From positions 1 through 29,748 of the IMG/VR virus record IMGVR_UViG_3300028559_000144: a stretch of 29,748 nt of DNA; one strand, 5' to 3'. This document shows positions 1-24,836 of the stretch, piece by piece; the first letter of the stretch is position 1; the number at the start of each line of letters is the position of its first letter. This DNA comes from a virus. The translations under genes and the position numbers were made by a program. Under the pieces are notes generated by a model. That model saw nothing but the letters and a program-made list of their open reading frames with translations. It searched no databases and was not told where the DNA came from.

Positions 1-953
1 CCAATGTCTACGAGGAACTTAATTCTACTTCTGCTTGCGTCTCGACAAAGTTTACGGAAGATGAAAGTGGCTACATTACGGTTGCAAACGACTATCGCAC
101 AATTGGTATCGTTAAGGACCCACTATATACTAACGTACTAATTGCTCTGACCGGCACAGTAGGAAACTTCGTCAGTGGCGAGCCGGTATATAGTTACACT
201 TCAGATGTGTTAGCCGGAACTGTTGCAATTACAACAGGAAGCCCAACGGTGACTGGAACAAATACGTTCCTTAATACTTCGTTCAAAGCTGGAGATCAGA
301 TTCTACTTACTAACGGGCTTAGTAATCAACTGGCTACTGTCGCCGGAACATCAAGCAATGTTTCATTGACTATTTCGTCAAACGCCATTTTCACCGCATC
401 TGGCCTTAAATGTGTGAAGCCATACTTAGAGCTAGCTGGAGAAGTGACTGGTGTTACCGGTGGTCTTACTCTGACCGATGTTCGCGGAACAAATGTGAGA
501 GCAAATAATCTCATTATCGGCGGTCTTTCTTATGCCACTTCCACAATAAACAGCGCCGCTCCACAACCTATTTCGATTAATGGTACTACTATAGTGAATT
601 TTAGCACATTTAACCAACTTACTAAATTTATTGGTTCTCAGACCGTTGGGGCATTTGTAGCCGATGAACTTGTAAGACAGGTAAATGCTCTACCAGCGGC
701 AGAACCATCCGCTCGAGTACACTCATTTGTAGAGAATGGTGTAAACGATGAACTATATCTTACTAATGTAAAGAATATATTTGAAGAAACTCAAAACATC
801 GTTAGTGATAGTGGTGCTGTATTCACCCTTTCCGATAAGACTCCGGGTGATCTGGTAAAAGACTCAGGTGATATTTTCTACATTGAAAATGTAAATCCCA
901 TTACTAGAGAAAGCAATAAATCTGAAACGGTGAAGCTCATACTTGAATTCTAA
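1..953 (+). CDS. 8: gp8-like baseplate wedge subunit, C-terminal part (5' truncated by window edge)
   Basis: The reading frame is open from the left edge (first full codon at base 3), so the start lies outside the window. The protein is assigned to the T4 gp8 family, a structural wedge protein of the tail baseplate. Two conserved stretches support this. One is YRTIGIVKDPL near the start, which matches the T4 gp8 segment FRQISIITNPL. The other is the C-terminus, DLVKDSGDIFYIENVNPI followed by a charged segment ending in LILEF, which matches T4 gp8 DLMRHSGEMIYMENRPPI and its hydrophobic end. In T4 these two stretches lie close together; here about 200 residues separate them, including a Thr/Ser/Asn-rich module (bases about 213-417) that recurs in the next two large genes. 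The family call rests on remembered motif similarity, not a search. A GTG at 207 is internal, not a start. Confidence 0.72.
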   Translation, partial: NVYEELNSTSACVSTKFTEDESGYITVANDYRTIGIVKDPLYTNVLIALTGTVGNFVSGEPVYSYTSDVLAGTVAITTGSPTVTGTNTFLNTSFKAGDQILLTNGLSNQLATVAGTSSNVSLTISSNAIFTASGLKCVKPYLELAGEVTGVTGGLTLTDVRGTNVRANNLIIGGLSYATSTINSAAPQPISINGTTIVNFSTFNQLTKFIGSQTVGAFVADELVRQVNALPAAEPSARVHSFVENGVNDELYLTNVKNIFEETQNIVSDSGAVFTLSDKTPGDLVKDSGDIFYIENVNPITRESNKSETVKLILEF

Positions 954-1179: not shown

Positions 1180-4100
1180 ATGCCAATTCAAACTGATCTA
1201 AGCATCTCTCCCTATTTCGATGACTTTTCGGCAGAGAAAGACTATTATAAGATTTTATTCCGCCCAGATGTTGCGGTCCAAGTTCGCGAGCTAAATCAAC
1301 TACAGACGATGCTTCAGAAGCAGGTCGAGCGATTTGGGGATAACATTTTTCGGCGCGGCACCATCATCGATGGCTGCGATATTAAGTTCTATGATATTTT
1401 TCCTTATGTAAAGATCAAGGATAACGAAGCCGCCGGAGCTCCAGCTAACCCAGCACAGTATCGCGGATACTATGTTCGGAACTCTGCTAATATTGCTCCT
1501 CTAATTGCATCTATTACCACTACAGTCGATGGCTTTGAGTCGCGGGCCCCAGACCTTAACACTTTATATCTTCGTTACATCAATTCAGGCTATGCAAACG
1601 TAGCAAATGTAAGAACCGAACAGCTGGTCTTTTCCGCGGATGAAACTCTTACTGTATACAACCCGTCCGACGTAATCGAAAAGATTATCTCGTTCAACGA
1701 CTCCACTGGGTTTGCTAACACGGATGAGGTGGTTATTCTACCATCACTTGCGCTTCAGAATTCATCCGGTGGTACTTTCTTTGCAAATGGCTTCTTTGTA
1801 GGAGACGAGCTTCGTTCCGCAACCGCCAATGTGAAGATTGTAACGGTAGATACTACCACTAATACTCAGGTGCTCATTCTAAGAGTTAAACCTCTAACGT
1901 CTGACCTTCAGTCCGGCAATACGGCCAAATGGGCTATCACTACCAATACAAATGTTCAGACTGCAAACGCAGCTCCCTCATCTATTGCTAACGTAGTCTC
2001 CATTCTTGGCTCGGGTGCCCAGGCAAGTCTTAAGACTGGCAATTTCGGCGAAGTGGATATCATTTCAGTAACGGGCAAGGGGTCTGGCTATATATCACTG
2101 CCCACTGTCTCTATCAAGACCTCAACTGCCAACACGCAACAAATTGAATCCGCTAACCTGGTCGCTCAATCTTTCCTAACTCAGATCGTAGTGTCTAACA
2201 CCAGCACCGTTCCTATTGGCACTGGATATGCTATGTCGGTAGGCGAAGGAGTTGTATATCAGAAAGGTTTCTTTGCTCGTGTTGCGCCACAGCTTGTTGT
2301 GGTAGAAAAATATGCAAATACTCCAGACGCGCTATCAGTTGGTTTTACAACCACGGAAACAATTGTCAACAGTCAACAAGATCAAGACCTGCTTGATAAC
2401 GTAACCGGCGCTCCGAACGCAACCGCACCAGGTGCAAACCGACTTAAGCTAACTCCTATGCTTACGGTCAAGGATAAAACTGCTGCGGATTCAGACTCAG
2501 AGTTCATGTCAATCGCAGAGTTTCGTGCCGGGGCTCCCTATAAGCAAAACAGACAGACCGTCTATAATGTTATCGGCAATGAGATGGCTCGGAGAACATT
2601 CGAGGAATCTGGTAACTATGTTATCGACCAATTCCAACTGAACACCAAGTCTCCAGTTAACTTTGGAGTGGAGGCTACCCGTTTTGATATTGTGGTAGAC
2701 CCAGGTGTAGCCCTAATCAATGGCAACCGAGTTGCAACAGAGCGCAACTATCAACTAGCAATCGACAAGGGGACTGATACAGTAGTAGCAAATAATGCTA
2801 CCATCTCTCTTAACTATGGCAATTATATTCGTGTGAACCAGTTTGGTGGTGTTCTTGACTTTGCCTCCGGTTCGCTTGTAAACCTATATGGCATTGCTGC
2901 AAACTATATTTCATCTACCCCTGGGCAAACACCAAGTGCCGCCGGTCTAGGGCCAACACTCGGCACCGCTCGAGTTAGAGCAATGGTACATGAAACTGGA
3001 ACTCCTGGTATTGGTGCTGCTGTATACCGCATATATCTATTTGATGTGAAACTTACCGATGGATCTAATTTCTCTAATGTAAGATCTATTTTCTATACTG
3101 ACGGCGGTTCAAAGCAGGCTGTTGCCGACCTTGTTCTAGTAGACGGCAATGGTGTACTAATCGACAATAATCGTACTGCGCTACTTTACTTTGCAGGATC
3201 GCCTGCGGTTAAGGGAATCGATAACGTATCATACGAATACAGAACAAGCAATACGCAATCGCTGCTTGCAAACGGCACCATTACACTCTCAACCACCTCC
3301 CCCGACGTGTTGCCTTACACCGGGCTTCTCTCTAGTGATCAAGAGCGCCAAATACTTGTAATTCCTACCGCGAATGTTCGCTTGGCGGCAAATGCTGCAG
3401 GTTCAGTAACCACGCTTACTACTAGCAATACCGTTACTGGGGTAAGTACTTCTTTCTTAACTTACTACGTTGCCGGCGACTTTATCCGGATTGCAAACTC
3501 TACAGTTAATACGGTGTCACAAATCTCGTCAATCGCTAACAGCACCAGTCTAACATTAACCGCCAATGCCGCCACCGCGTTCACAGGTGCTAATACTACC
3601 CTGCAAATGCCAATGAATGTGCCTCTTTCACTTGAACGGGCATCACGAAGCGTTACTGTTACCACTGCTAACTCTACTACCATGAACATGGTGATTGACC
3701 TTGGTGCGTCGGTTAATGCCATCACATCAGTTTCAGTGTCTCATAATGTAAAATCCACAGCCACTCAAGCTCAAGCCAAGACCGTAAACAGAAATCGATA
3801 TGCTCGTATTCTTACTTCAAACGCGACTAGTCTAGACGCAGGACCTTGGGCCCTAGGTGTATCAGATGTATTCCGACTCAAGAAAGTCTACAGCGCCAAC
3901 AGTGCATCACAAGTGGTGAGCATCAATGCACTAACTGCGGTCAATAGCTCATCTGATTTTATCACTGTCACAAACAATCCATTTTCAAATGGCGACTCAG
4001 TTACATATTCTAACACCGGCGGCACTGGGGCCATCGGCGGCCTTACTAACTCTACTTCTTACTTTGTAATTGATGCAAATACTTCAGGCTTTGCTCTGTC

Positions 4101-6522
4101 AACATCAAGTGGCGGTGCTAAGATTGATATCACCGCCAACTCTAGCACAACACACACCTTCACTGGTCGTCCTATTCACTTTACTCCTACTACATATGGC
4201 GTGTCAGACGTAACAAAGAATTACTATATTGACCACAACCAAACTGAAGATTATTACGGTACATCTTATCTGTATGTAAAACCCAACGCGACCAATAAAC
4301 CTACTATTACTCAGGGGCTTCTTGTTCAATATGATGTATTTACGGTTGCGGCCGAGGGTCTCAAGACAATTAGTTCATACACCATCAATGACGGACTTAC
4401 TCTTGCTGTATCCAATACAAGCATTAATACTATGGAAATCCCAGAAGTCTATGGTACGAAGGGAACATATTACGATCTTCGTGACCACTTTGACTTCCGA
4501 CCGGTTTCTGCTAATACTGTAGCCCTTATTGCGGTGGCAAACTCATCGGTTCCTATCAACCCAGCTGAGCCATCCAATGCTAATAGATTCAGTGGTTCCA
4601 ACAAGCTATATCCCGCGCCAGACACAAATCTGTCCGCCGATATTGAGTACTATCAGGGGCGCGCCGACCGAGTCATTATTAATGATCAAGGTGAGTTCAA
4701 GATAATGCGCGGAACTCCAGGGTCACCTGTTGCTCCTACTAAGCCCGATAATGCACTTACTGTCAACCTGCTTCAGATTCCACCATATCCTTCGCTGCCG
4801 TTTGCACTGTCTGCTTCAATGGCGGACTTTGTAGATACTTCAATTGCCAACGAGCGGTTTACTAATAAGCGTGGTTCAGTCTATAAGGTGCAAACTCCAA
4901 TCGATTCGAACCAAAGGGCCCGACTACAGCCTCGCGGTTATACCATGGTGGATATTGGCGCACTTGATCGCAGAATCAATGCCCTAGAATATTATGTGTC
5001 GTTTACCCTGGTTGAGGTACTAGCTCAGCGCCGGGTGATTCCAAGTTCTACTGACACATCGGTTGATCGCTTTAAGTTCGGGCTGTTTGTTGACGGCTTC
5101 CAGGATGAAAAGTATAGTGATAAGCGCAACCCAGGCTATTCCGCTGCCATCATCAATGGTTACCTATCCGCCTCAGTAGAAGAACTTAATCTGCCTGCTG
5201 AACTAGACTCCGCTGATCCACTGCAGCTTCCTTATGACGAACTTGTCTTTATCTCACAGACCACATGTACCAATGGCCCTGCTCGTGCCGCCAATACTAC
5301 TGTCTTTGTCGGCAATACCACGGTTACAAGTAACACCACCACTCAAGTAACTCAGATTACAACATCTGTTGACATTACTAATAGAACCACTAACCGATCA
5401 AATACGGCGCCTTATGTCTACGAGGACTGGGCATTTAAGCTAAGTTCACTCTCAGGTCCAGCAGAACTATACATGAACTGCTTCGATAACAACACCGCAT
5501 TGGAAGTTCTGCAAAGCACTACCGAGGATGGAACTTTTGCTGTTATCTACAATACGGCATCTGGCGGACCGGTCAGAGCTGTTACCGTTGCTGAAAGTAG
5601 ACCTACTGGTCGGGCGTATCGCATCGGCGGGCGTAGAACACTACAAGATCTAGGTCAGCTCCACATTGCCGGTTACGGCCCAGGTGGTGGCTTTATCAGC
5701 GATTCCTATGTTATTCCATGGACTCACAACCCCGCCGGAGGTCAGTTTTATAAGATTCGCGTCTACAAGGGCCTGCGTGGGGTAGACCGAGGTGCGGATG
5801 CTCCGCTTGGTACTTACTCATTCCGTCTATATTACCCAACTGATGCGGCTGTTGCCGAACCAAGAGTTATCGGACCTGATTATGATGTGTCCACCTGGTT
5901 CGATGGTATCATATACAACGGAGTTGTGCTACCGTATAATCTTATCTCTCAGCCAAGTAGATCAGTTCGGTATATAGCAAACGACGTCTATCGCTACATT
6001 ACTGGCTCTGGGCAAAGAGGCGCTGAAGGTTATACAAGCCTGCAGCAGAGATTTACCGTCAGTATTACTGGACTTAAGCCTAGCACTACTCATATTATTC
6101 GCATGGACGGAATTGATATTACATCAAAGACTCAAGCAGGAGCTAATGCAATTGGTGCGCCACTTGTGACTGCGCCCGACGGGACTCTGGTATTTGATCT
6201 ATTCTTCTATCCTGACATCAATAACCCAACCTCTGAAGCTCAACTAGCTGCACAGATTGCAAGTACTCCAGTCGGAGACCGAGAGTTTACTGTTACGAAC
6301 TCAGATGGTTCCTCTACTTCTACTGGGCGTCTCACAATTGCTGGCTGGGTTAGACAAGAGATCAATACTCCTCCGGTGCAACCCGAACTCCCTGTAATCA
6401 CCTCACCGACTGGTATATATATTGATACCCCGACTGTAACATCAGTTGGTGATACCTCATTCCGATGGGATGGAACTATTGGTGGCGGCCCTGTTCGATC
6501 CGATTCTGTTAACGAATTTTAA
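1180..6522 (+). CDS. DUF4815-type giant virion structural protein (baseplate/fibre-associated)
   Basis: This 1780-aa protein begins LSISPYFDDFSAEKDYYKIL, followed by RPDVAVQVRELNQLQTMLQ and ERFGDNIFRRGTIIDG. That is the characteristic N-terminus of DUF4815 proteins encoded in the late region of aquatic T4-like phages. No enzymatic motif is visible. The middle is Thr/Ser/Asn-rich beta-type sequence with two recognisable modules. The first is a VTG-x-ST-x-F ... GD-x-I module (bases about 3379-3612) shared with the neighbouring genes. The second is a GDSVTYSNTGG ... HTF module (about 3952-4167) often seen in phage adhesins. The C-terminal ~150 residues look Ig-like (RFTVSITGLKPSTTHIIRMD). The role is probably a large baseplate-periphery or fibre-attachment protein, inferred from position after gp8. 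The ATG has GGAG upstream and its own late promoter. Confidence 0.8.
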   Translation: MPIQTDLSISPYFDDFSAEKDYYKILFRPDVAVQVRELNQLQTMLQKQVERFGDNIFRRGTIIDGCDIKFYDIFPYVKIKDNEAAGAPANPAQYRGYYVRNSANIAPLIASITTTVDGFESRAPDLNTLYLRYINSGYANVANVRTEQLVFSADETLTVYNPSDVIEKIISFNDSTGFANTDEVVILPSLALQNSSGGTFFANGFFVGDELRSATANVKIVTVDTTTNTQVLILRVKPLTSDLQSGNTAKWAITTNTNVQTANAAPSSIANVVSILGSGAQASLKTGNFGEVDIISVTGKGSGYISLPTVSIKTSTANTQQIESANLVAQSFLTQIVVSNTSTVPIGTGYAMSVGEGVVYQKGFFARVAPQLVVVEKYANTPDALSVGFTTTETIVNSQQDQDLLDNVTGAPNATAPGANRLKLTPMLTVKDKTAADSDSEFMSIAEFRAGAPYKQNRQTVYNVIGNEMARRTFEESGNYVIDQFQLNTKSPVNFGVEATRFDIVVDPGVALINGNRVATERNYQLAIDKGTDTVVANNATISLNYGNYIRVNQFGGVLDFASGSLVNLYGIAANYISSTPGQTPSAAGLGPTLGTARVRAMVHETGTPGIGAAVYRIYLFDVKLTDGSNFSNVRSIFYTDGGSKQAVADLVLVDGNGVLIDNNRTALLYFAGSPAVKGIDNVSYEYRTSNTQSLLANGTITLSTTSPDVLPYTGLLSSDQERQILVIPTANVRLAANAAGSVTTLTTSNTVTGVSTSFLTYYVAGDFIRIANSTVNTVSQISSIANSTSLTLTANAATAFTGANTTLQMPMNVPLSLERASRSVTVTTANSTTMNMVIDLGASVNAITSVSVSHNVKSTATQAQAKTVNRNRYARILTSNATSLDAGPWALGVSDVFRLKKVYSANSASQVVSINALTAVNSSSDFITVTNNPFSNGDSVTYSNTGGTGAIGGLTNSTSYFVIDANTSGFALSTSSGGAKIDITANSSTTHTFTGRPIHFTPTTYGVSDVTKNYYIDHNQTEDYYGTSYLYVKPNATNKPTITQGLLVQYDVFTVAAEGLKTISSYTINDGLTLAVSNTSINTMEIPEVYGTKGTYYDLRDHFDFRPVSANTVALIAVANSSVPINPAEPSNANRFSGSNKLYPAPDTNLSADIEYYQGRADRVIINDQGEFKIMRGTPGSPVAPTKPDNALTVNLLQIPPYPSLPFALSASMADFVDTSIANERFTNKRGSVYKVQTPIDSNQRARLQPRGYTMVDIGALDRRINALEYYVSFTLVEVLAQRRVIPSSTDTSVDRFKFGLFVDGFQDEKYSDKRNPGYSAAIINGYLSASVEELNLPAELDSADPLQLPYDELVFISQTTCTNGPARAANTTVFVGNTTVTSNTTTQVTQITTSVDITNRTTNRSNTAPYVYEDWAFKLSSLSGPAELYMNCFDNNTALEVLQSTTEDGTFAVIYNTASGGPVRAVTVAESRPTGRAYRIGGRRTLQDLGQLHIAGYGPGGGFISDSYVIPWTHNPAGGQFYKIRVYKGLRGVDRGADAPLGTYSFRLYYPTDAAVAEPRVIGPDYDVSTWFDGIIYNGVVLPYNLISQPSRSVRYIANDVYRYITGSGQRGAEGYTSLQQRFTVSITGLKPSTTHIIRMDGIDITSKTQAGANAIGAPLVTAPDGTLVFDLFFYPDINNPTSEAQLAAQIASTPVGDREFTVTNSDGSSTSTGRLTIAGWVRQEINTPPVQPELPVITSPTGIYIDTPTVTSVGDTSFRWDGTIGGGPVRSDSVNEF

Positions 6523-15127: not shown

Positions 15128-18100
15128 TTAGCGCCGGATAAAGTAATAATCTCCGTCTGGCTTATCTACCTCGGTGAATTGACCTGCACACTCAAAGCCA
15201 ATGCTATCCAGATATTCAATCACTTCTTCAGCTTTAGGCGCACCGACATTGTAGTCGGTTTTCTGTAGTTCAAGAAGTAGGTGGTTACACCCTTTCAGGG
15301 TTTCAGTTGCGCCTTTAAGCACATCGAGTTCCGCTCCCTGAATATCCATCTTGATCAAGTCGGGTGTTGGAAACTGATTCATCTTGCACACGCTATCAAG
15401 TGACATTCCGATCCGCTTCTTCTTATTCTCTTCTGGGAATAGAGTTGGAGCAAGAGGACTGAGTTCTGGGTTCTCTGTGTAATAACTATTTCCAGCCGGA
15501 TCATGCGTGTTTTCGTTGAAGTCTAGTTCCGTGAAATCATTCTCGGTAAGCAGGCCTAGGTGATGATCGTAGTCGTTGTAAAGAAATCTAACCTCTGACA
15601 TTGCCTCAAATAGCACAAACTTGGATTCAGGCCATACCTTTTTAGCTTCGTTAGTCCAATGAAGAACACAAGAGCCAATGTCATAGATAACGGCAGGTTT
15701 GATCATGCCGCTAAGTTTTCTCAGGAACTCTATGTGGTCAAGTGGCAACATAGGAGTATCATGTAGAGCTTTGAGTCTTTGTCTCTCTGGAGACTCTGGA
15801 GCCGAAGCATTATCTTCAATACGGAACACCCGATCCCCGTGATGGTCACAAACAATCGTAACATCGCACCAAATACCATAACCTAGCTTGCGAGCTTTCA
15901 TACAGAAGTCTAGGTCCTCACTGACTGTATTGGTATGATCTAGTGCCGAGTGATAGACAAACTGTGGATAGCCTACGGCTTTGAATACTTCAGACTTGAT
16001 CAGAACACAGCCCAGCCCACAACCGCAAATCTCTACAAAAGACCATTGTTTAAGAGCCGCCCAGGGAATGTTATGGTGAAGATGATCATACACTTCAAGA
16101 ATTTGTTCCTCTTTGCGCTGTCTATAAACTCCGGTTACAATAGGTTTATCATGCGCCAGTAGTTTTACCAGCGTATCCGGCGCAAATGCAATATCATGAT
16201 CCACAGAAAAAAGATAATCGTATGATCGAACGGTCCAGTCTGCAATGAGATTCCGAACTTGGTCTACGTTGTAGCCATAGAAATATTGAAAGTCAACTTC
16301 ATAGCCTTCCGGCACGATAAGATCATAGATTGATTTGAATGTTGCGACCTCAATATTTTTGGCGGTGGGAATTGCAATTAGTATCTTCTTATTTTTCATA
16401 ATCTTGCCCTTGGTTACAGCATTCACGGTTCTTGTTTGTTCGTCACTATTAATCTTATAGTCATTTATCGGATTCTTATCGTTGTAGTTATACACGATAT
16501 CAGGCACACATACGACTTTGTCTGGGTCAGCTAGTTCCAATAGAGTGTAAAAGACGGCGGTGTCTCCACCTGCTTTAAGCCATTTGTCATCCTTATCTTG
16601 GAACGCCGTATCATCTGGCACCAAGTTAAACAACTTGCCTTTAAATGTCCTCATATGAGTGTAAGGCATATGCCAGTTGAACTCATAGCTGCGGTACGAT
16701 TTGTTTCTTTTAATCTCTGGAGGATATGGCTGTGCAACTAGAGGAATGTTGTCAGCCATAGACCAACAAGAGCCGTATGTAAACTCAGCACCTTCGTCGT
16801 ACAGGTTGTTGTACATATGGAAGATAGTTGGATCATTAACTAGAGTATCGTCTCCGTCAATGAGTATACAAATATCATCGCCATCTGGCTCAATATTGCG
16901 AAGGCTTGTTATCTGATTACATACAGCGCCGCGGTTGACGGTATTATTTATTAGGTGAAATTTGCTCTCTGTTTCCAAGTCAAGCGTGTTTAGTGCGTTG
17001 TTTATACGATCCCAAGTGGAATCAGTTGATGCATCATTAATAATTGTTACGTCATAGTTATCATAATCTTGGGCCGCAATAGACTTAATGCAATCCTCAA
17101 TATAGTTCTCTGCGTTATAGACAGGAACGATAACGTGTATGCGCTTTTCTTTTGTCTTTGGTTGTAGTAGCTCCTCGGGGTTTAGATATCGGCGATTGAA
17201 CACCGATCGTACCTTCTTATTAATAGCAGTCACCTTTCGGTATTCGTCAACTCGAAGATAGTTTCCCATCTTGTGATACAGATGTTGTTTCCATTGTAGG
17301 GCAACGGAATCCCAACCACAAATAGTGGCTACGTCCCCGCAGGCTTTTTGCTTTTCATCAAGCCTTGAGTAGTGGTATGCATCAATGACTAGATTAGCAA
17401 ACTCTTGAGCTTGCCGATCGGCATCAAGCTCAGGTACTATCCAATTTGGTTCAACTGGGTACTTAAGTTTCCATGAGGCCGCGTCAATAGCGGTCTCTGA
17501 TAGTCCGGCATAATCACAAGTGATGACCGGAGTATTGTAGTAGAGTGACTCAAGCACGGAAATACCAAACGTCTCAGGCTGATCACACGGATAGATCATA
17601 TAGGTGGAACTTGCCACCTCTTGTGCTACTTGCTTCGGGGTCAGTATTCCAGTGAACGTGATAGTATCATTGCAGGTAAGCTTTGATAGCCGATTGTATT
17701 CTACTTCTTGTGCATCGGGACCGTGCGACTCGGCAAATTTGTAGTAGCCACCTAGAACTTTCAGTCGTGCGGTCGGAATGGCCGCTACTACTTTAGGCCA
17801 AATCTTTTCTACCAGAGGAGTCATACCTTTTGATACCGCAGAATTGAACACAAAGAGGTTGGGATCTTTTTTGGCGTGAGGAGAGATCTTGTGTCTAGCC
17901 ATTCCATTTCTTGTGTGGAATTGTTTCTTCTTAAAGTTCTCTGACATTCTGTAGTGCCCATGATTGGCATTAGCAACATATGAACTGTGCCAGTCTGTCA
18001 GGGTGAATACCTCGTCTAGCCGATTTTCGTTCAGATATTGCTCGAGCAGACCATCACCGTCCAGGAAGGTATCGTGCATCCATAAAGCTTTAAAGCCCGA

Positions 18101-18445
18101 TTGCCCGATCATCCCGCTGAAGTCTGGAAGATAGGTATAGGTTTTGAAGTTCTCTCTCATCTCGGGTGGTGCGTATGCCACCAGAGAACGACTGGCAATT
18201 ACGATATCAAAGCCTGGATGCCCTTGCACATCAATGAGAGGCCTATACAGAACACCGTTATAGAAGCCAGGCTTTGTGTCGGGGCCTTCGCACGTGTTAA
18301 ACACCGTTACATCAAAGCCAATCTTTGCAAGTTCGGCAGATAATAGTATTACTGAGGCCTCAGAACCACCGAGACCTCTTTTGTTTAGGGTATCACCATC
18401 GTAGCATTGCCCCAGGGTATCAATGAATGCAATTGTCTTGTTCAT
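15128..18445 (-). CDS. four-domain glycosyltransferase-FkbM methyltransferase fusion
   Basis: This 1105-aa cytoplasmic-type protein has no signal peptide or membrane segment. Residues 1-~400 are a GT4-like (GT-B) glycosyltransferase: KRGLGGSE near residue 22, VSKGMTPLVEKIWP near 205, and the E-x7-E motif ETFGISVLE near 295. Residues ~435-640 are a GT2-type (GT-A) domain, with HVIVPVYNAENYI, INDASTDST and the metal-binding ILIDGDDT near 525. Residues ~683-880 are another GT-A-like domain (MKNKKILIAIPTAKN, then SVDHDIAF near 747 and SEDLDFCMKA). Residues ~900-1105 are an FkbM-type SAM methyltransferase with YDIGS near 921 and LIKMDIQGAELDVLKGA near 1030. Its ATG overlaps the upstream gene's stop (ATGA), with an AGGAACC ribosome site. 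It probably builds and O-methyl-caps a short glycan; the acceptor is unknown. It could alternatively modify host envelope sugar. Confidence 0.85.
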   Translation of the reverse strand: MNKTIAFIDTLGQCYDGDTLNKRGLGGSEASVILLSAELAKIGFDVTVFNTCEGPDTKPGFYNGVLYRPLIDVQGHPGFDIVIASRSLVAYAPPEMRENFKTYTYLPDFSGMIGQSGFKALWMHDTFLDGDGLLEQYLNENRLDEVFTLTDWHSSYVANANHGHYRMSENFKKKQFHTRNGMARHKISPHAKKDPNLFVFNSAVSKGMTPLVEKIWPKVVAAIPTARLKVLGGYYKFAESHGPDAQEVEYNRLSKLTCNDTITFTGILTPKQVAQEVASSTYMIYPCDQPETFGISVLESLYYNTPVITCDYAGLSETAIDAASWKLKYPVEPNWIVPELDADRQAQEFANLVIDAYHYSRLDEKQKACGDVATICGWDSVALQWKQHLYHKMGNYLRVDEYRKVTAINKKVRSVFNRRYLNPEELLQPKTKEKRIHVIVPVYNAENYIEDCIKSIAAQDYDNYDVTIINDASTDSTWDRINNALNTLDLETESKFHLINNTVNRGAVCNQITSLRNIEPDGDDICILIDGDDTLVNDPTIFHMYNNLYDEGAEFTYGSCWSMADNIPLVAQPYPPEIKRNKSYRSYEFNWHMPYTHMRTFKGKLFNLVPDDTAFQDKDDKWLKAGGDTAVFYTLLELADPDKVVCVPDIVYNYNDKNPINDYKINSDEQTRTVNAVTKGKIMKNKKILIAIPTAKNIEVATFKSIYDLIVPEGYEVDFQYFYGYNVDQVRNLIADWTVRSYDYLFSVDHDIAFAPDTLVKLLAHDKPIVTGVYRQRKEEQILEVYDHLHHNIPWAALKQWSFVEICGCGLGCVLIKSEVFKAVGYPQFVYHSALDHTNTVSEDLDFCMKARKLGYGIWCDVTIVCDHHGDRVFRIEDNASAPESPERQRLKALHDTPMLPLDHIEFLRKLSGMIKPAVIYDIGSCVLHWTNEAKKVWPESKFVLFEAMSEVRFLYNDYDHHLGLLTENDFTELDFNENTHDPAGNSYYTENPELSPLAPTLFPEENKKKRIGMSLDSVCKMNQFPTPDLIKMDIQGAELDVLKGATETLKGCNHLLLELQKTDYNVGAPKAEEVIEYLDSIGFECAGQFTEVDKPDGDYYFIRR

Positions 18446-19740
18446 GCTATGGTTCCTAGTTCACACTTATTCAATGTTCGGCGCCCAAATACTTTATGGG
18501 CTCGCTGATTTATACGATTGACTTTATTTAGCAAAGCTTTACTCATGGGCTTTCCAAATGTAAAGCAGAAGTGTTGGTGCCATTGTAAGGCAACTGTGTC
18601 CCACTCACAAATATCAGCTACTGCGTTGCAGGCATATTGCTTTTGCTGGTGCAGATAGGGAGTGTTGTATGCTCTGATTACCATATCGGCAAACAGTTGA
18701 GCCTGAGCATCTTGATCAATCCACGGCACCATCCAGTTTGGAGTCACTGGATATCTAATCTTGTATGATGCGGAATCAATTGCTGTTTCCTCTAGCGCTG
18801 CAAACTCGCAGGTGAATACTGGGGTATTATAGTAGATGGATTCTAGGGTGGAGATACCAAAGGTCTCTGGATCAGCGCACGGAAAGATGGTATAGGCGGC
18901 TTTGGCTAAAATATTAGCGATTTCCGATTGCTTGATAATGCCGGTGAACTCGATGGAATCACCGCACAGTGCTTTAAGTCTCAGATAGTTCTGTTCAAAC
19001 ATATCAGGCATGTCGCAATCATTGAACCTATAATACCCGCCGATAATCTTTAGTCTGGCTTGAGGAATTGCTTTGTGGACAATAGGCCAAACTTTTTCGA
19101 CCAGCGGGGCCATTCCTTTTGACACTGACGCATTGTATACGAAAAGGTTCGGGTCTTTATCTTTGATATCTACCCAGTCAATGTGCTTCTTGATGCCGTT
19201 GCGGGTCTGGAAAATCTTCTGATGGAAGTTTTCGGACATTCTCTTTTTGCCATGGTCAGCATGTGAAACGTAGGAACTATGCCAATCTGAGAGAGTAAAC
19301 ACTTCATCGATCACGCCGTCGTTCAGGTATTGCTCAATCAAATGATCGCCATGACAGAACGTATCTTGCATCCATAGGATTTTGTGCAATGCGGCATCAA
19401 CTATAGGACTAAAGTCTGGAAGATGGGCGAAAGCGTTGAGCGAATCCCTTTCTTCATGCGGGACAAATGCCGCTACGGACCTGAAGCCAATGACGATATC
19501 GTATTCATAGTACTCTGGATTTTCCACCTCGCGTAGAGGCTTGAACGATACTCCGTTATAGACACCAGGGCTAGAGTATGGACTCTCACAATTATTGTAA
19601 ACAGTTACATCATAACCAAGTTTTACCAGTTCTGCCGACATGTAAATGACCGCCGACTCGGAGCCACCTAGGCCTCGCTTGCTTAGGGTTTCACCGTCAT
19701 AACTTAACCCCACCGCATCAATAATTGCAATTGTGTACAT
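18442..19740 (-). CDS. GT4-like glycosyltransferase, paralogue of the first domain of the fusion protein
   Basis: This 432-aa protein is collinear with residues 1-~420 of the following gene (for example TLSKRGLGGSESAVIYMSAE here and TLNKRGLGGSEASVILLSAE there; LPDFS; LTDWHSSYV/LSDWHSSYV; PETFGISTLES/PETFGISVLES). It contains the GT-B retaining-enzyme E-x7-E signature near residue 290 and lacks signal peptide or membrane segments. I chose the ATG at 19740, which has an AGG five bases upstream and matches the N-terminus of the paralogue; a GTG two codons earlier is possible. It is the first gene of a two-gene minus-strand operon, ending in an ATGA overlap, and is served by the minus-strand late promoter at 19822-19829. 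It probably transfers a nucleotide-activated sugar in the same glycan pathway as the fusion enzyme. Confidence 0.85.
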   Translation of the reverse strand: MYTIAIIDAVGLSYDGETLSKRGLGGSESAVIYMSAELVKLGYDVTVYNNCESPYSSPGVYNGVSFKPLREVENPEYYEYDIVIGFRSVAAFVPHEERDSLNAFAHLPDFSPIVDAALHKILWMQDTFCHGDHLIEQYLNDGVIDEVFTLSDWHSSYVSHADHGKKRMSENFHQKIFQTRNGIKKHIDWVDIKDKDPNLFVYNASVSKGMAPLVEKVWPIVHKAIPQARLKIIGGYYRFNDCDMPDMFEQNYLRLKALCGDSIEFTGIIKQSEIANILAKAAYTIFPCADPETFGISTLESIYYNTPVFTCEFAALEETAIDSASYKIRYPVTPNWMVPWIDQDAQAQLFADMVIRAYNTPYLHQQKQYACNAVADICEWDTVALQWHQHFCFTFGKPMSKALLNKVNRINQRAHKVFGRRTLNKCELGTIA

Positions 19741-19769
19741 GTTCACCTATGTCCAGACTATTTTCTTAT

Positions 19770-22175: not shown

Positions 22176-22570
22176 TGTCAACACTAGATAACGCACTAGG
22201 ACTTACTCCATACAAACCAGAAAAACAAAGTCCTACACTAGTTCAAACTGAGAATGTAGATACGGTAGACTTTGATCATGCCAGGTCAACACTCTATGAT
22301 GTGCTCGAGGAAACCAAGTCCGCAGTAGATGAAATGATCGGCATTGCTAGCCAGTCTCAGCACCCAAAGTCATACGAAGTGCTCAATGGCATACTTAAGA
22401 CTATGGCAGATGTAAGTATGAACTTAGTGGACTTGGATATAAAGCGACGTAAAGTGCTCGGTGCTACAGAAGCGGCCGCTGCTCCTGTGACAAATAATCT
22501 GTTTGTCGGTAGCACTGCTGAGTTGCAAATGATGATTGCTCAGATGCAAGCAAGTAAAGATGAGCAGTGA
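22175..22570 (+). CDS. 16: small terminase subunit gp16
   Basis: This 131-aa protein (T4 gp16 is 164 aa) is mostly predicted helical (LYDVLEETKSAVDEMIGIAS, VLNGILKTMADVSMNLVDLD, ELQMMIAQMQAS), consistent with the ring-forming central domain of gp16. The small terminase regulates the packaging ATPase and recognises concatemeric DNA. It starts on the gp15 stop codon and overlaps gp17 by 11 bases, so the two terminase subunits are translationally coupled. The call rests mainly on position between gp15 and gp17 plus the helical pattern. Confidence 0.83.
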   Translation: MSTLDNALGLTPYKPEKQSPTLVQTENVDTVDFDHARSTLYDVLEETKSAVDEMIGIASQSQHPKSYEVLNGILKTMADVSMNLVDLDIKRRKVLGATEAAAAPVTNNLFVGSTAELQMMIAQMQASKDEQ

Positions 22571-24836
22571 GTTTAAGGGCTACAATGGCAATCACAATCT
22601 AAAGAAAGGCGGAGTTCAGATTGACTGGACTCCCGCCCTAGTACAAGAGTATCTAAAGTGTTCACAGGACCCAGTATACTTCTGTGAAACTTACATGAAG
22701 ATCATTAACGTCGACGAAGGTCTAATCCCATTCGAGATGTATGATTACCAAAAGGAAATGATTACCAGTATGGCGGATAATCGCTATACTATTATCACCA
22801 CGGCTCGCCAGACCGGAAAATGTGTTGATGGGGGCACAAAGGTAGAAATTAAGTTTTTAGACTCTGGTTGGGCAAAGCTTTCTATTAGCACGATTCATGA
22901 AATTAGTCTTTTTGTAAATAACTACAGGTTACGGTGGTTGCAGGAAGACGACTATAATGTTTTTAGAAAACAAGTATACATTTACTTATCTTCTATTGAT
23001 GAGGAAGAGGCAAACGTATTTGATCGACTTTGGAGAGAAGCATCACATACTACCAAAGTCTCTTGGTGGGAGCAACTTACCAGAACATCTAGTTATAATG
23101 AAAGCAGTCTGGGCGCTAAGGAAAGCGACAAAAAATTCATTGAGTCCTTCAGCCTAACCGGTTTTTATACTACATCAAGTGACGGTGTGGTTCCCATTTC
23201 GGAATCCCACAAAACTATTGAATATAATGTCTGGGAACTAGTAACAGAAACAAAAACACTAAACGCAGCTGATATGCATATAGTGTTTTTGAAAAATGAT
23301 GTGCAAAAATTCATAAAAGACTTAATGTTAGGTGATGAAATCATTACTGACACTGGGTTAGAAAAGATTATATCAGTCACAAAGACAGCCCGTTCTGTTA
23401 ATATGTATGATCTTGGTATTAATCATGAACAGCATCGCTATTATACCAATGGAATTTTATCCCATAACAGCACCACTACTTGCGGGTTTATTCTTTGGTA
23501 CATTCTATTCCACTCTGAAAAAACGGTTGCTCTACTTGCAAACAAAGGCGATACCGCCCGAGAAATTCTAAGTAAGATTCAGCTTGCTTATGAGCATCTA
23601 CCCAAGTGGCTTCAGCAAGGTGTGCGCGAATGGAATAAGGGTTCGTTTGAATTAGAAAACAACTCCAGAGTTATTGCTACTGCCACCAGTGGCAACAACA
23701 TCCGTGGTTATGCCATTAACCTACTGTTCATCGACGAAGCCGCGTTTATTGCTAACTGGGAAGAATTCTTCACATCAGTACTACCTACTATCTCGTCCGG
23801 TAAGTCCACAAAAATTGTGCTTGTGTCTACTCCAAACGGGCTAAATCACTTCCATAAACTTTGGGCTGGTGCCAATGATGGGACCAATAACTTTAATCCG
23901 ATTAAGGTTATGTGGAGCGAAGTGCCGGGGAGAGATGAGACCTGGAAAAAAGATACTCTAGCAGCGATGGGTAACGATACGGAAAAGTTCAACCAAGAAC
24001 ACTGCTGTGAATTCCTAGGCAGTTCTGGCACTCTCATTGCTGGCTGGAAGCTAAAAGAACTGACTTTCAAACTCCCTCGACTTGCTGGGGAAGGTGTTTC
24101 TCAGTACGAAGCTCCAATCCCGGATAACAAATATGTAATGGTGTGTGATGTGTCACGAGGTAAGGGTCTTGACTATTCTGCATTTCAGTTGATCGATACC
24201 ACTGCCATGCCTTACCGGCAAGTAATGGTTTACCGAAATAATCTAATTTCACCGATTGACTATGCCGAAGTGATCCATCGAATTGCAAAGACGTACAACA
24301 ATGCCGCCATTCTGGTGGAATCCAATGATATCGGGCAACAAGTTGCCGACACAATCTATCAAGAATATGAGTATGAAAATATCCTATTTACTGAGGGTGC
24401 TGGTAGGGCTGGTAAGAAAATCTCATCTGGCTTTAGTTCTGGGTCTGACATTGGCGTCCGAACCACAAAATCTGTTAAGGCGGTCGGATGTTCTATTCTC
24501 AAACTACTCATCGAACAGAACCAACTTATTCTTCGCGATCATCAAACTATTAAAGAAATATCTACGTTCTCAAAGAAAGCCAACTCATTCGAGGCCGAGT
24601 CTGGTTGTCACGATGATTTGGTCATGGGACTAGTACTATTTGCCTGGCTATCCGACCAGCAGTACTTTAAAGACATGACGGACATTAATACTCTCATGCG
24701 ACTAAGAGAAAAAACGGAAGATGAATGGGATAGAGAACTGATTCCGTTCGGCTTTATTGAAACCGGGCAAGAGGAACACGAAGATATAGTGGAACTTAAG
24801 CCTGGCGATACATTTGAGTCAAGACTGTGCGGCTAG
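22560..24836 (+). CDS. 17: large terminase gp17 (packaging ATPase-nuclease) interrupted in frame by an intein
   Basis: The precursor is 758 aa; removing the 216-aa intein leaves about 542 aa, close to gp17 of aquatic T4-like phages. ATPase: Walker A is ARQTGK (ending at residue 87) followed, after the intein, by S304; Walker B is LLFIDEAAF (Asp392/Glu393 of the precursor) and the coupling motif is VSTPNG. Nuclease: DVSRGKGLDYS (Asp530), VESNDIG (Glu587) and CHDDLV (Asp685/Asp686) supply the acidic metal-binding set known from T4 gp17. It pumps DNA into the prohead through the portal and cuts headful lengths. I use the ATG at 22560, which overlaps gp16; an in-frame TTG at 22536 is less likely. 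Since the Walker A loop is split by the intein, ATPase activity should require splicing. Confidence 0.95.
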   Translation: MSSEFKGYNGNHNLKKGGVQIDWTPALVQEYLKCSQDPVYFCETYMKIINVDEGLIPFEMYDYQKEMITSMADNRYTIITTARQTGKCVDGGTKVEIKFLDSGWAKLSISTIHEISLFVNNYRLRWLQEDDYNVFRKQVYIYLSSIDEEEANVFDRLWREASHTTKVSWWEQLTRTSSYNESSLGAKESDKKFIESFSLTGFYTTSSDGVVPISESHKTIEYNVWELVTETKTLNAADMHIVFLKNDVQKFIKDLMLGDEIITDTGLEKIISVTKTARSVNMYDLGINHEQHRYYTNGILSHNSTTTCGFILWYILFHSEKTVALLANKGDTAREILSKIQLAYEHLPKWLQQGVREWNKGSFELENNSRVIATATSGNNIRGYAINLLFIDEAAFIANWEEFFTSVLPTISSGKSTKIVLVSTPNGLNHFHKLWAGANDGTNNFNPIKVMWSEVPGRDETWKKDTLAAMGNDTEKFNQEHCCEFLGSSGTLIAGWKLKELTFKLPRLAGEGVSQYEAPIPDNKYVMVCDVSRGKGLDYSAFQLIDTTAMPYRQVMVYRNNLISPIDYAEVIHRIAKTYNNAAILVESNDIGQQVADTIYQEYEYENILFTEGAGRAGKKISSGFSSGSDIGVRTTKSVKAVGCSILKLLIEQNQLILRDHQTIKEISTFSKKANSFEAESGCHDDLVMGLVLFAWLSDQQYFKDMTDINTLMRLREKTEDEWDRELIPFGFIETGQEEHEDIVELKPGDTFESRLCG
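22821..23468 (+). mobile_element. 216-aa intein in the Walker A motif of gp17
   Basis: The insert starts with Cys1 (CVDGGTKVEIKF, block A) and ends ...RYYTNGILSHN (blocks F/G, penultimate His and terminal Asn). It is followed by Ser+1, which is also the P-loop Ser of the terminase. The block B region is LNAADMHIVF with His153 of the intein; the usual Thr three residues before this His is Ala here. GDEIITDTG and VNMYDLGINHEQHRYY complete the splicing fold. All splicing nucleophiles are present, so it should be active. No LAGLIDADG motif is present in frame. About 85-90 extra residues lie between blocks A and B. This extra part is where a frameshifted HNH relic lies. The intein is AT-rich: 35 G+C in 23221-23340 (29%) against 29 in 60 for 23701-23760 (48%) of the host gene. 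Confidence 0.93.
22957..23157 (+). pseudogene. HNH homing-endonuclease relic in the +1 frame inside the intein
   Basis: Read one base out of register with the terminase, this stretch encodes 66 residues containing NKYTFTY, then EKHHILPKSLGGSN (bases 23035-23076) and LPEHLV. This is the signature of HNH homing endonucleases of the HHI(I/L)P(R/K)SLGGSN type. The expected downstream REHxxxH segment is missing (KAVWALRKATKN instead), and the frame stops at 23157, so it is truncated and probably inactive. The splicing frame runs through without a stop. Either a once in-frame endonuclease was knocked out of register by two compensating indels, or this is a nested gene. An AGGAAG at 22942-22947, nine bases before its ATG, leaves the second option open. 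Confidence 0.75.

Follow-up and report, generated by a model that had tools for sequence, protein, structure and literature searches.

The terminase large subunit gene of the window, i.e. the whole stretch of 29,748 nucleotides analysed, an IMG/VR virus fragment, is interrupted by a contiguous intein, which carries in its +1 frame the remains of an HNH homing endonuclease. The reading preferred here, to which a probability of about 0.85 is assigned, is that this element is a decayed dual-coding TerL intein, in which the HNH sequence was never part of the splicing frame and the offset between the two frames is ancestral. This reading is based on sequence comparisons: the +1 register is shared by all relatives with nested endonucleases, no gap separates the window from its relative L126, stops are avoided in the intact nested genes, and the nuclease frame is constrained in one nested group.

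The terminase gene and its intein

The window carries T4-type structural genes, coding for head-tail connector, terminase, tail sheath, tail tube and portal. The gene for the terminase large subunit (T4-type gp17, TerL) spans 22560-24836 on the + strand, as do all window features described below unless otherwise indicated; its frame is open from a TTG at 22536, and the ATG at 22560 is the likely start. The product matches Terminase_6N (6.9e-16), Terminase_6C (1.2e-12) and phrog_2 (2.1e-59), and is 65-72% identical to intein-less relatives. Two large glycosyltransferase-type genes (1105 and 434 aa), antisense to the structural operon, are located on the - strand at 15128-19746, between tail and neck genes.

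The intein (22821-23468, 216 aa, class-1-like) is inserted in the Walker A motif of TerL, RQTGK|S. Its splice residues, Cys1, the penultimate His215, the terminal Asn216 and the +1 Ser, are in frame with the conserved host site, and the block residues conserved in the family are retained. It was recognized by comparison with homologous TerL inteins, by a sequence match to VidaL in the PDB (6e-5) and by an AlphaFold model, which shows a confident Hint fold (pLDDT 89.3, pTM 0.86) having VidaL (6vgv, E=4.7e-10) as top Foldseek match in the PDB; the score for Pfam Intein_splicing is under the cut-off of that model. The IntN segment, of about 30 residues (22821-22910), was located with an IntN profile built here (6.1e-8 in the identical contig L001), and the IntC segment (KFIESF...TNGILSHN, 23133-23468) with alignments and an IntC profile. 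Since no stop separates the two segments, which lie in a single open frame from 22536 to 24836, this is neither a split intein nor a fractured gene. On this evidence the insert is a contiguous, atypically built class-1-like TerL intein, for which splicing activity is predicted. A DNA pattern scan for RQTGKC returned the same virus and chance matches, and nothing else.

An HNH relic in the +1 frame

Within the intein, the +1 frame is open, stop to stop, from 22918 to 23157, and contains an ORF of 66 aa, extending from an ATG at 22957 to the stop at 23155-23157. A previous, sequence-only reading of this DNA had pointed to an HNH signature at 22957-23157, and its elements NKYTFTY, EKHHILPKSLGGSN and LPEHLV are all found there; translation also confirmed that the splicing frame reads the same DNA, free of stops, as WREASHTTKVSWWEQL. 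The family search which had been proposed as a check assigned the +1 peptide to phrog_655 (PHROGs, homing endonuclease) with E=1.3e-8, and a tblastn search retrieved mobile HNH endonucleases of T4-like phages (E=1e-5); because of these hits a chance match can be excluded. The match to Pfam HNH_5 is weak (0.005, below the curated cut-off), and the splicing frame of the intein has no HNH family match in Pfam or PHROGs.

The core of the relic, NKYTFTY...EKHHILPKSLGGSNLPEHLV (22969-23094), is 63% identical over 46 residues (E=2e-16) to the complete HNH endonuclease nested in the intein of L126. It is followed by a tail, IMKAVWALRKATKNSLSPSA (23095-23154), the presumed C-terminal end of the old endonuclease, which resembles the tails of L126 and L129. 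The first histidine pair of the HNH motif is present, the central Asn is changed to His (EHLV, vs ENxV in the relatives) and the region of the third histidine is deleted; the complete catalytic motif is found in L126, L125 and L051. Judging from these residues, the relic is a MobE-type HNH homing endonuclease which is dead, as had been proposed.

The hexamer AGGAAG, similar to a Shine-Dalgarno sequence, occurs at 22942-22947, 9 nt 5' of the ATG, with a duplex energy against the anti-SD of -4.3 kcal/mol. An open frame preceded by such a site is what a functional small nested protein, either a mini-HNH or a regulator, would display, but this role for the 66-aa ORF is extremely improbable, given the deletion of the third histidine region, the changed central Asn and the greater length of every intact member. 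The idea of a nested gene with its own AGGAAG ribosome site, offered as an alternative in the sequence-only reading, fits the ancestor, while the copy in the window is a relic.

Two further IMG/VR contigs, 3300027970_000560 and 3300028557_000047, are 100% identical to the window over the intein, and one of them differs from it by 1 nt in 6,209 outside the intein. Since three contigs are identical across the intein, a frameshift error in the consensus is very unlikely. Sequencing or assembly error, against which raw reads were to be checked, was ruled out on these grounds, the inteins of L126, L127 and L128 being likewise identical to one another. L126 and L001 share the IMG sample number 3300027970.

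Relatives with intact nested endonucleases

The TerL intein alignment took in 80 of 418 relatives, and others were added by two more scans, led by L051 and L088. In most of these relatives the intein is split and a nuclease separates its halves. A full-length nuclease lying in the +1 frame of a contiguous intein, the splicing frame of which is free of stops, was found in L051, L125, L126, L088, L152, L199-L204, L206 and L257. In the first three, inteins of 405-448 aa contain, wholly in the +1 frame, an HNH-NUMOD3 endonuclease of 254-299 aa (E=3e-48, 4e-53 and 8e-34 against phrog_655). In L088, L152, L199-L204 and L206 the nested +1 gene belongs to another family, matching DUF559/MTES_1575, and its sequence suggests the Vsr-like type. 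In L257 (2645-6934) one TerL contains two inteins: a split one with a Vsr-like nuclease is followed by a contiguous one in which an HNH is nested in +1. Relics similar to that of the window are present in L129 (HNH type) and L054 (Vsr-like type). The window itself, having no intact nested nuclease, is a deleted derivative of the dual-coding arrangement. The register is +1 in every relative with an endonuclease nested in a contiguous intein, and an HNH in the splicing frame is absent from all the relatives found.

In a tree of IntC sequences (113 columns), the window groups with L126, L125, L051, L129 and L047 (SH-aLRT 98). All six inteins of this clade are contiguous; three have an intact +1 HNH and two have relics. 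Compared with the window, the TerL exteins of L129 and L126 show 53-64% identity. Only three distinct intact HNH members are present in the clade, all metagenomic and 44-46% identical to one another at the protein level. No isolate phage with the nested arrangement was found when the L051 and L088 inteins were used as queries.

Other features were observed in these loci. The TerL of L126 has a second, split intein (3250-4270; IntN after EFC, IntC ending TIVNHN|C), with an apparent GIY-YIG-type endonuclease gene between the halves (3348-4004). In L129 the relic intein (771-1460) has Lys instead of His as penultimate residue (ILSKN), and its splicing may be impaired. In Vibrio phage VP-1 (L040, 2030-4249) the TerL ORF continues in frame, after QEYDC, into GIY-YIG endonuclease-like sequence, and a gene annotated separately encodes the remainder of the protein. 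The sole cellular match of the intein scan is an Oscillospiraceae MAG contig (L269), a weak IntC relative with 27% identity.

Register and deletion history

According to the sequence-only reading, an ordinary intein with an in-frame HNH had lost its register through two compensating indels, under selection which kept the splicing frame open. An HNH in +1, an open splicing frame, with 0 stops across the intein, and an A6 run near the end of the relic would all suit such a history. However, the +1 register is shared by L126, L125, L051 and L129, and the window aligns to L126 without gaps over intein nt 1-264, and the two agree in the register of the HNH; over the corresponding splicing-frame residues, 1-88, identity is 45%, again with no gap. 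The A6 run, at 23130-23135, is real, but it sits at the start of IntC and marks no indel, and the proposed alignment with relatives still carrying the endonuclease in frame found no such relative. A paired-indel origin is, on these comparisons, very improbable.

The window intein is 567 nt (189 codons, a multiple of three) shorter than that of L126, and the simplest history would be the loss, in frame, of the middle of the nuclease, about 570 nt including the third HNH histidine. The window tail IMKAVWALRKATKN resembles the L126 tail QKMKEAWRLRKE, in a weak match (blastp-short E=0.03), and the L129 relic has a similar tail, KMKEAWVKRR. The tail probably represents the C terminus of the former endonuclease, brought next to the core by in-frame loss; a single deletion event depends on this assignment, and hence on the weak match and on the similarity to L129. 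Assignment of the tail to a middle region of MobE was also considered, and was dropped in view of the similar C-terminal ends of L126 and L129.

Differences between the window and L126 are most frequent at third codon positions of the HNH frame over the HNH overlap (11/10/17 at positions 1, 2 and 3), and at third positions of the splicing frame before the HNH (19/19/27), the counts being small in both cases.

In the AlphaFold model of the L126 intein, the Hint parts and the stretch 45-90 have pLDDT near 97, and residues 96-236 are below 50, which is consistent with most of the linker between IntN and IntC being unstructured. The splicing-frame translation of the HNH core (22953-23084 in the window, intein residues 45-88) is modelled as confident helices both in the window and in L126. 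These helices could be a real overprinted subdomain or a by-product of the constraint on the HNH frame, both being possible from the models.

Constraint on two frames

Stops in the frames overlapping each nuclease gene were compared with those in 20,000 synonymous permutations, in which protein and codon usage were kept fixed. The splicing register of each intact nested gene contains 0 stops, against 12-23 expected, and the other register contains 21-30, near or somewhat above expectation. At wobble positions before AA/AG/GA codons, T is found at 0 of 87-129 sites per nested gene, vs 27-44% elsewhere. L199 and L201 are near-copies, and are to be counted as one. Such avoidance, specific to the splicing register, further argues against paired indels. 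In the window, T is likewise found at 0 of these wobble sites, of which 19 are left, a small number for judging ongoing selection.

By dynamic programming, synonymous choice alone was found to clear every stop when the endonuclease is in +1, with 2-7 stops unavoidable in +2; for this reason +1 is the workable register. Between L200 and L201, the 46 changes are 31 synonymous and 15 replacement in the nuclease frame, where about 0.2 would be expected to be synonymous, and 5 synonymous and 41 replacement in the splicing frame. Since changes are synonymous mainly in the nuclease frame, this frame is constrained as protein, and the linker mainly to stay open.

The same test bears on a possible origin from a fractured ancestor, with a stop after IntN, a free nuclease and an IntC start, in which loss of the stop joined the halves and left the nuclease out of frame. 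The prevalence of split relatives with a nuclease between the halves agrees with such a fusion, as do the 8 changes, on the IntC tree, between the contiguous and the split state. The 46 nuclease genes from split loci, however, contain 25-64 stops, mostly as expected and in a few cases mildly low, all of which a split locus would have to purge, and the nearest relatives of the window are contiguous, and in three of them intact nested genes avoid stops thoroughly. A fused split intein is, for these reasons, an unlikely account of the window, while the same route may be the deeper origin of the whole class.

Start sites of the nested genes

In L088, L152, L199-L201, L206 and the relic L054, the nuclease ATG is located at Cys+73 to +79, in an IntN motif. 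The start context is GGAGAATTTTATG or close to it, and is read by the splicing frame as IGEFY, a conserved intein motif; many nucleases have such a GGAG...ATG start inside IGEFY. At split loci, 36 of 69 counted nuclease genes start at Cys+73..82, and only this subset was used, the frame tally of split loci including some mis-assigned extein ORFs. Starts inside IGEFY have an anti-SD duplex energy of -7.3 kcal/mol, which is also the median of the split starts; the values are -6.4 for L125 and L126 and +0.4 for L051, and control ATGs have a median of -0.9. Energies between -6.4 and -7.3 were thus obtained for 7 of 8 intact nested genes, two of them near-copies, and no clear SD precedes the nested start of L051. 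These contexts lend fair support to translation of the nested gene from its own start, least so for L051.

Proposed history of the element

In the ancestor, IntN and IntC would have been joined in frame by a long linker, the DNA of which, read in +1, formed a complete HNH-NUMOD3 gene that had a start codon of its own. Ribosomes initiating internally on the TerL mRNA would make the endonuclease, which would then promote the homing of the intein into terL genes lacking it; the linker, in the splicing frame, would need only to stay free of stops and clear of the Hint fold. Both frames would be kept usable by wobble-base avoidance of stops, and in the best-developed cases ribosome site and start codon would be built into the IntN motif IGEFY. 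In the lineage of the window, about 570 nt, with most of the endonuclease, would then have been lost in frame and the central Asn replaced by His, so that the element now amounts to a mini-intein carrying a relic in +1.

On balance, it seems reasonably probable that these elements form a class of dual-coding mobile inteins, in which about 0.8-0.95 kb serve both as dispensable linker and as a complete, active +1 endonuclease. A single nonsense change in the linker, together with an IntC start, would convert such an element to the split form, its nuclease then being free-standing, and the contiguous and split types would be connected through this class. How split inteins arose thereby becomes testable as a step of one or few mutations.

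Comparison with known systems

In the usual descriptions, an intein either contains its endonuclease as an in-frame domain or is split, the nuclease then having a free-standing gene. Dassa et al. (2009) reportedly described fractured genes, in which split inteins are accompanied by free-standing homing endonucleases, of the Vsr-like type in part of the loci. The order IntN, nuclease gene, IntC and the Vsr-like nucleases of some loci are common to those systems and to the inteins described here, in which, unlike in fractured loci, a single open frame runs through IntN and IntC, with the nuclease wholly overlapping it in +1. Earlier work on fractured genes with split inteins, and on atypically split TerL inteins, is cited in PMC6892783 and PMC11766414. 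AceL-TerL, GOS-TerL, Cat-TerL and VidaL (PMC11766414; PDB 6vgv, 6dsl) have, as the window intein, a very short IntN, a long IntC and a Hint fold, and the first three are also located in TerL; they are split proteins, whereas the window has a contiguous intein, in which a helical insert and a +1 nuclease relic are present. The TerL mini-inteins of Ackermannviridae (Kuja, VP-1, P46FS4, Maynard) belong to the same family and share the insertion site, and those examined show no endonuclease trace in any frame. The MobE/MobB HNH endonucleases of T4-like phages (phrog_655), to the sequence family of which the relic and the intact nested HNHs belong, are free-standing genes, and differ from the window copy, which is without the catalytic residues.

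In the part of the literature covered, no contiguous intein was found described as having an endonuclease nested out of frame, and dual-coding inteins are apparently an undescribed group. Such nesting involves at least two nuclease families, provides a clean natural case of dual-frame coding, upheld almost wholly by wobble bases, and implies that searches limited to the host frame will miss nested endonucleases.

Along with the fractured loci, the closest known systems are the ShiLan-type insertions in phage DNA methylases (PMC11855218), in which an HNH gene lies out of frame, starting at a GTG 18 bp inside the insert, and for which the authors found neither splicing domain nor RBS. In both systems an intact HNH is read in a frame other than that of the host gene, as is the relic in the window, and the host frame is open through the insert. 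Here, unlike in the ShiLan type, the nested gene is flanked by the IntN and IntC of an intein and usually starts at an SD-preceded ATG, and splicing would be able to restore the host protein. The methylase insertions, for which the phenomenon was reported in 2025, have neither splicing domains nor ribosome sites, and the TerL inteins add both.
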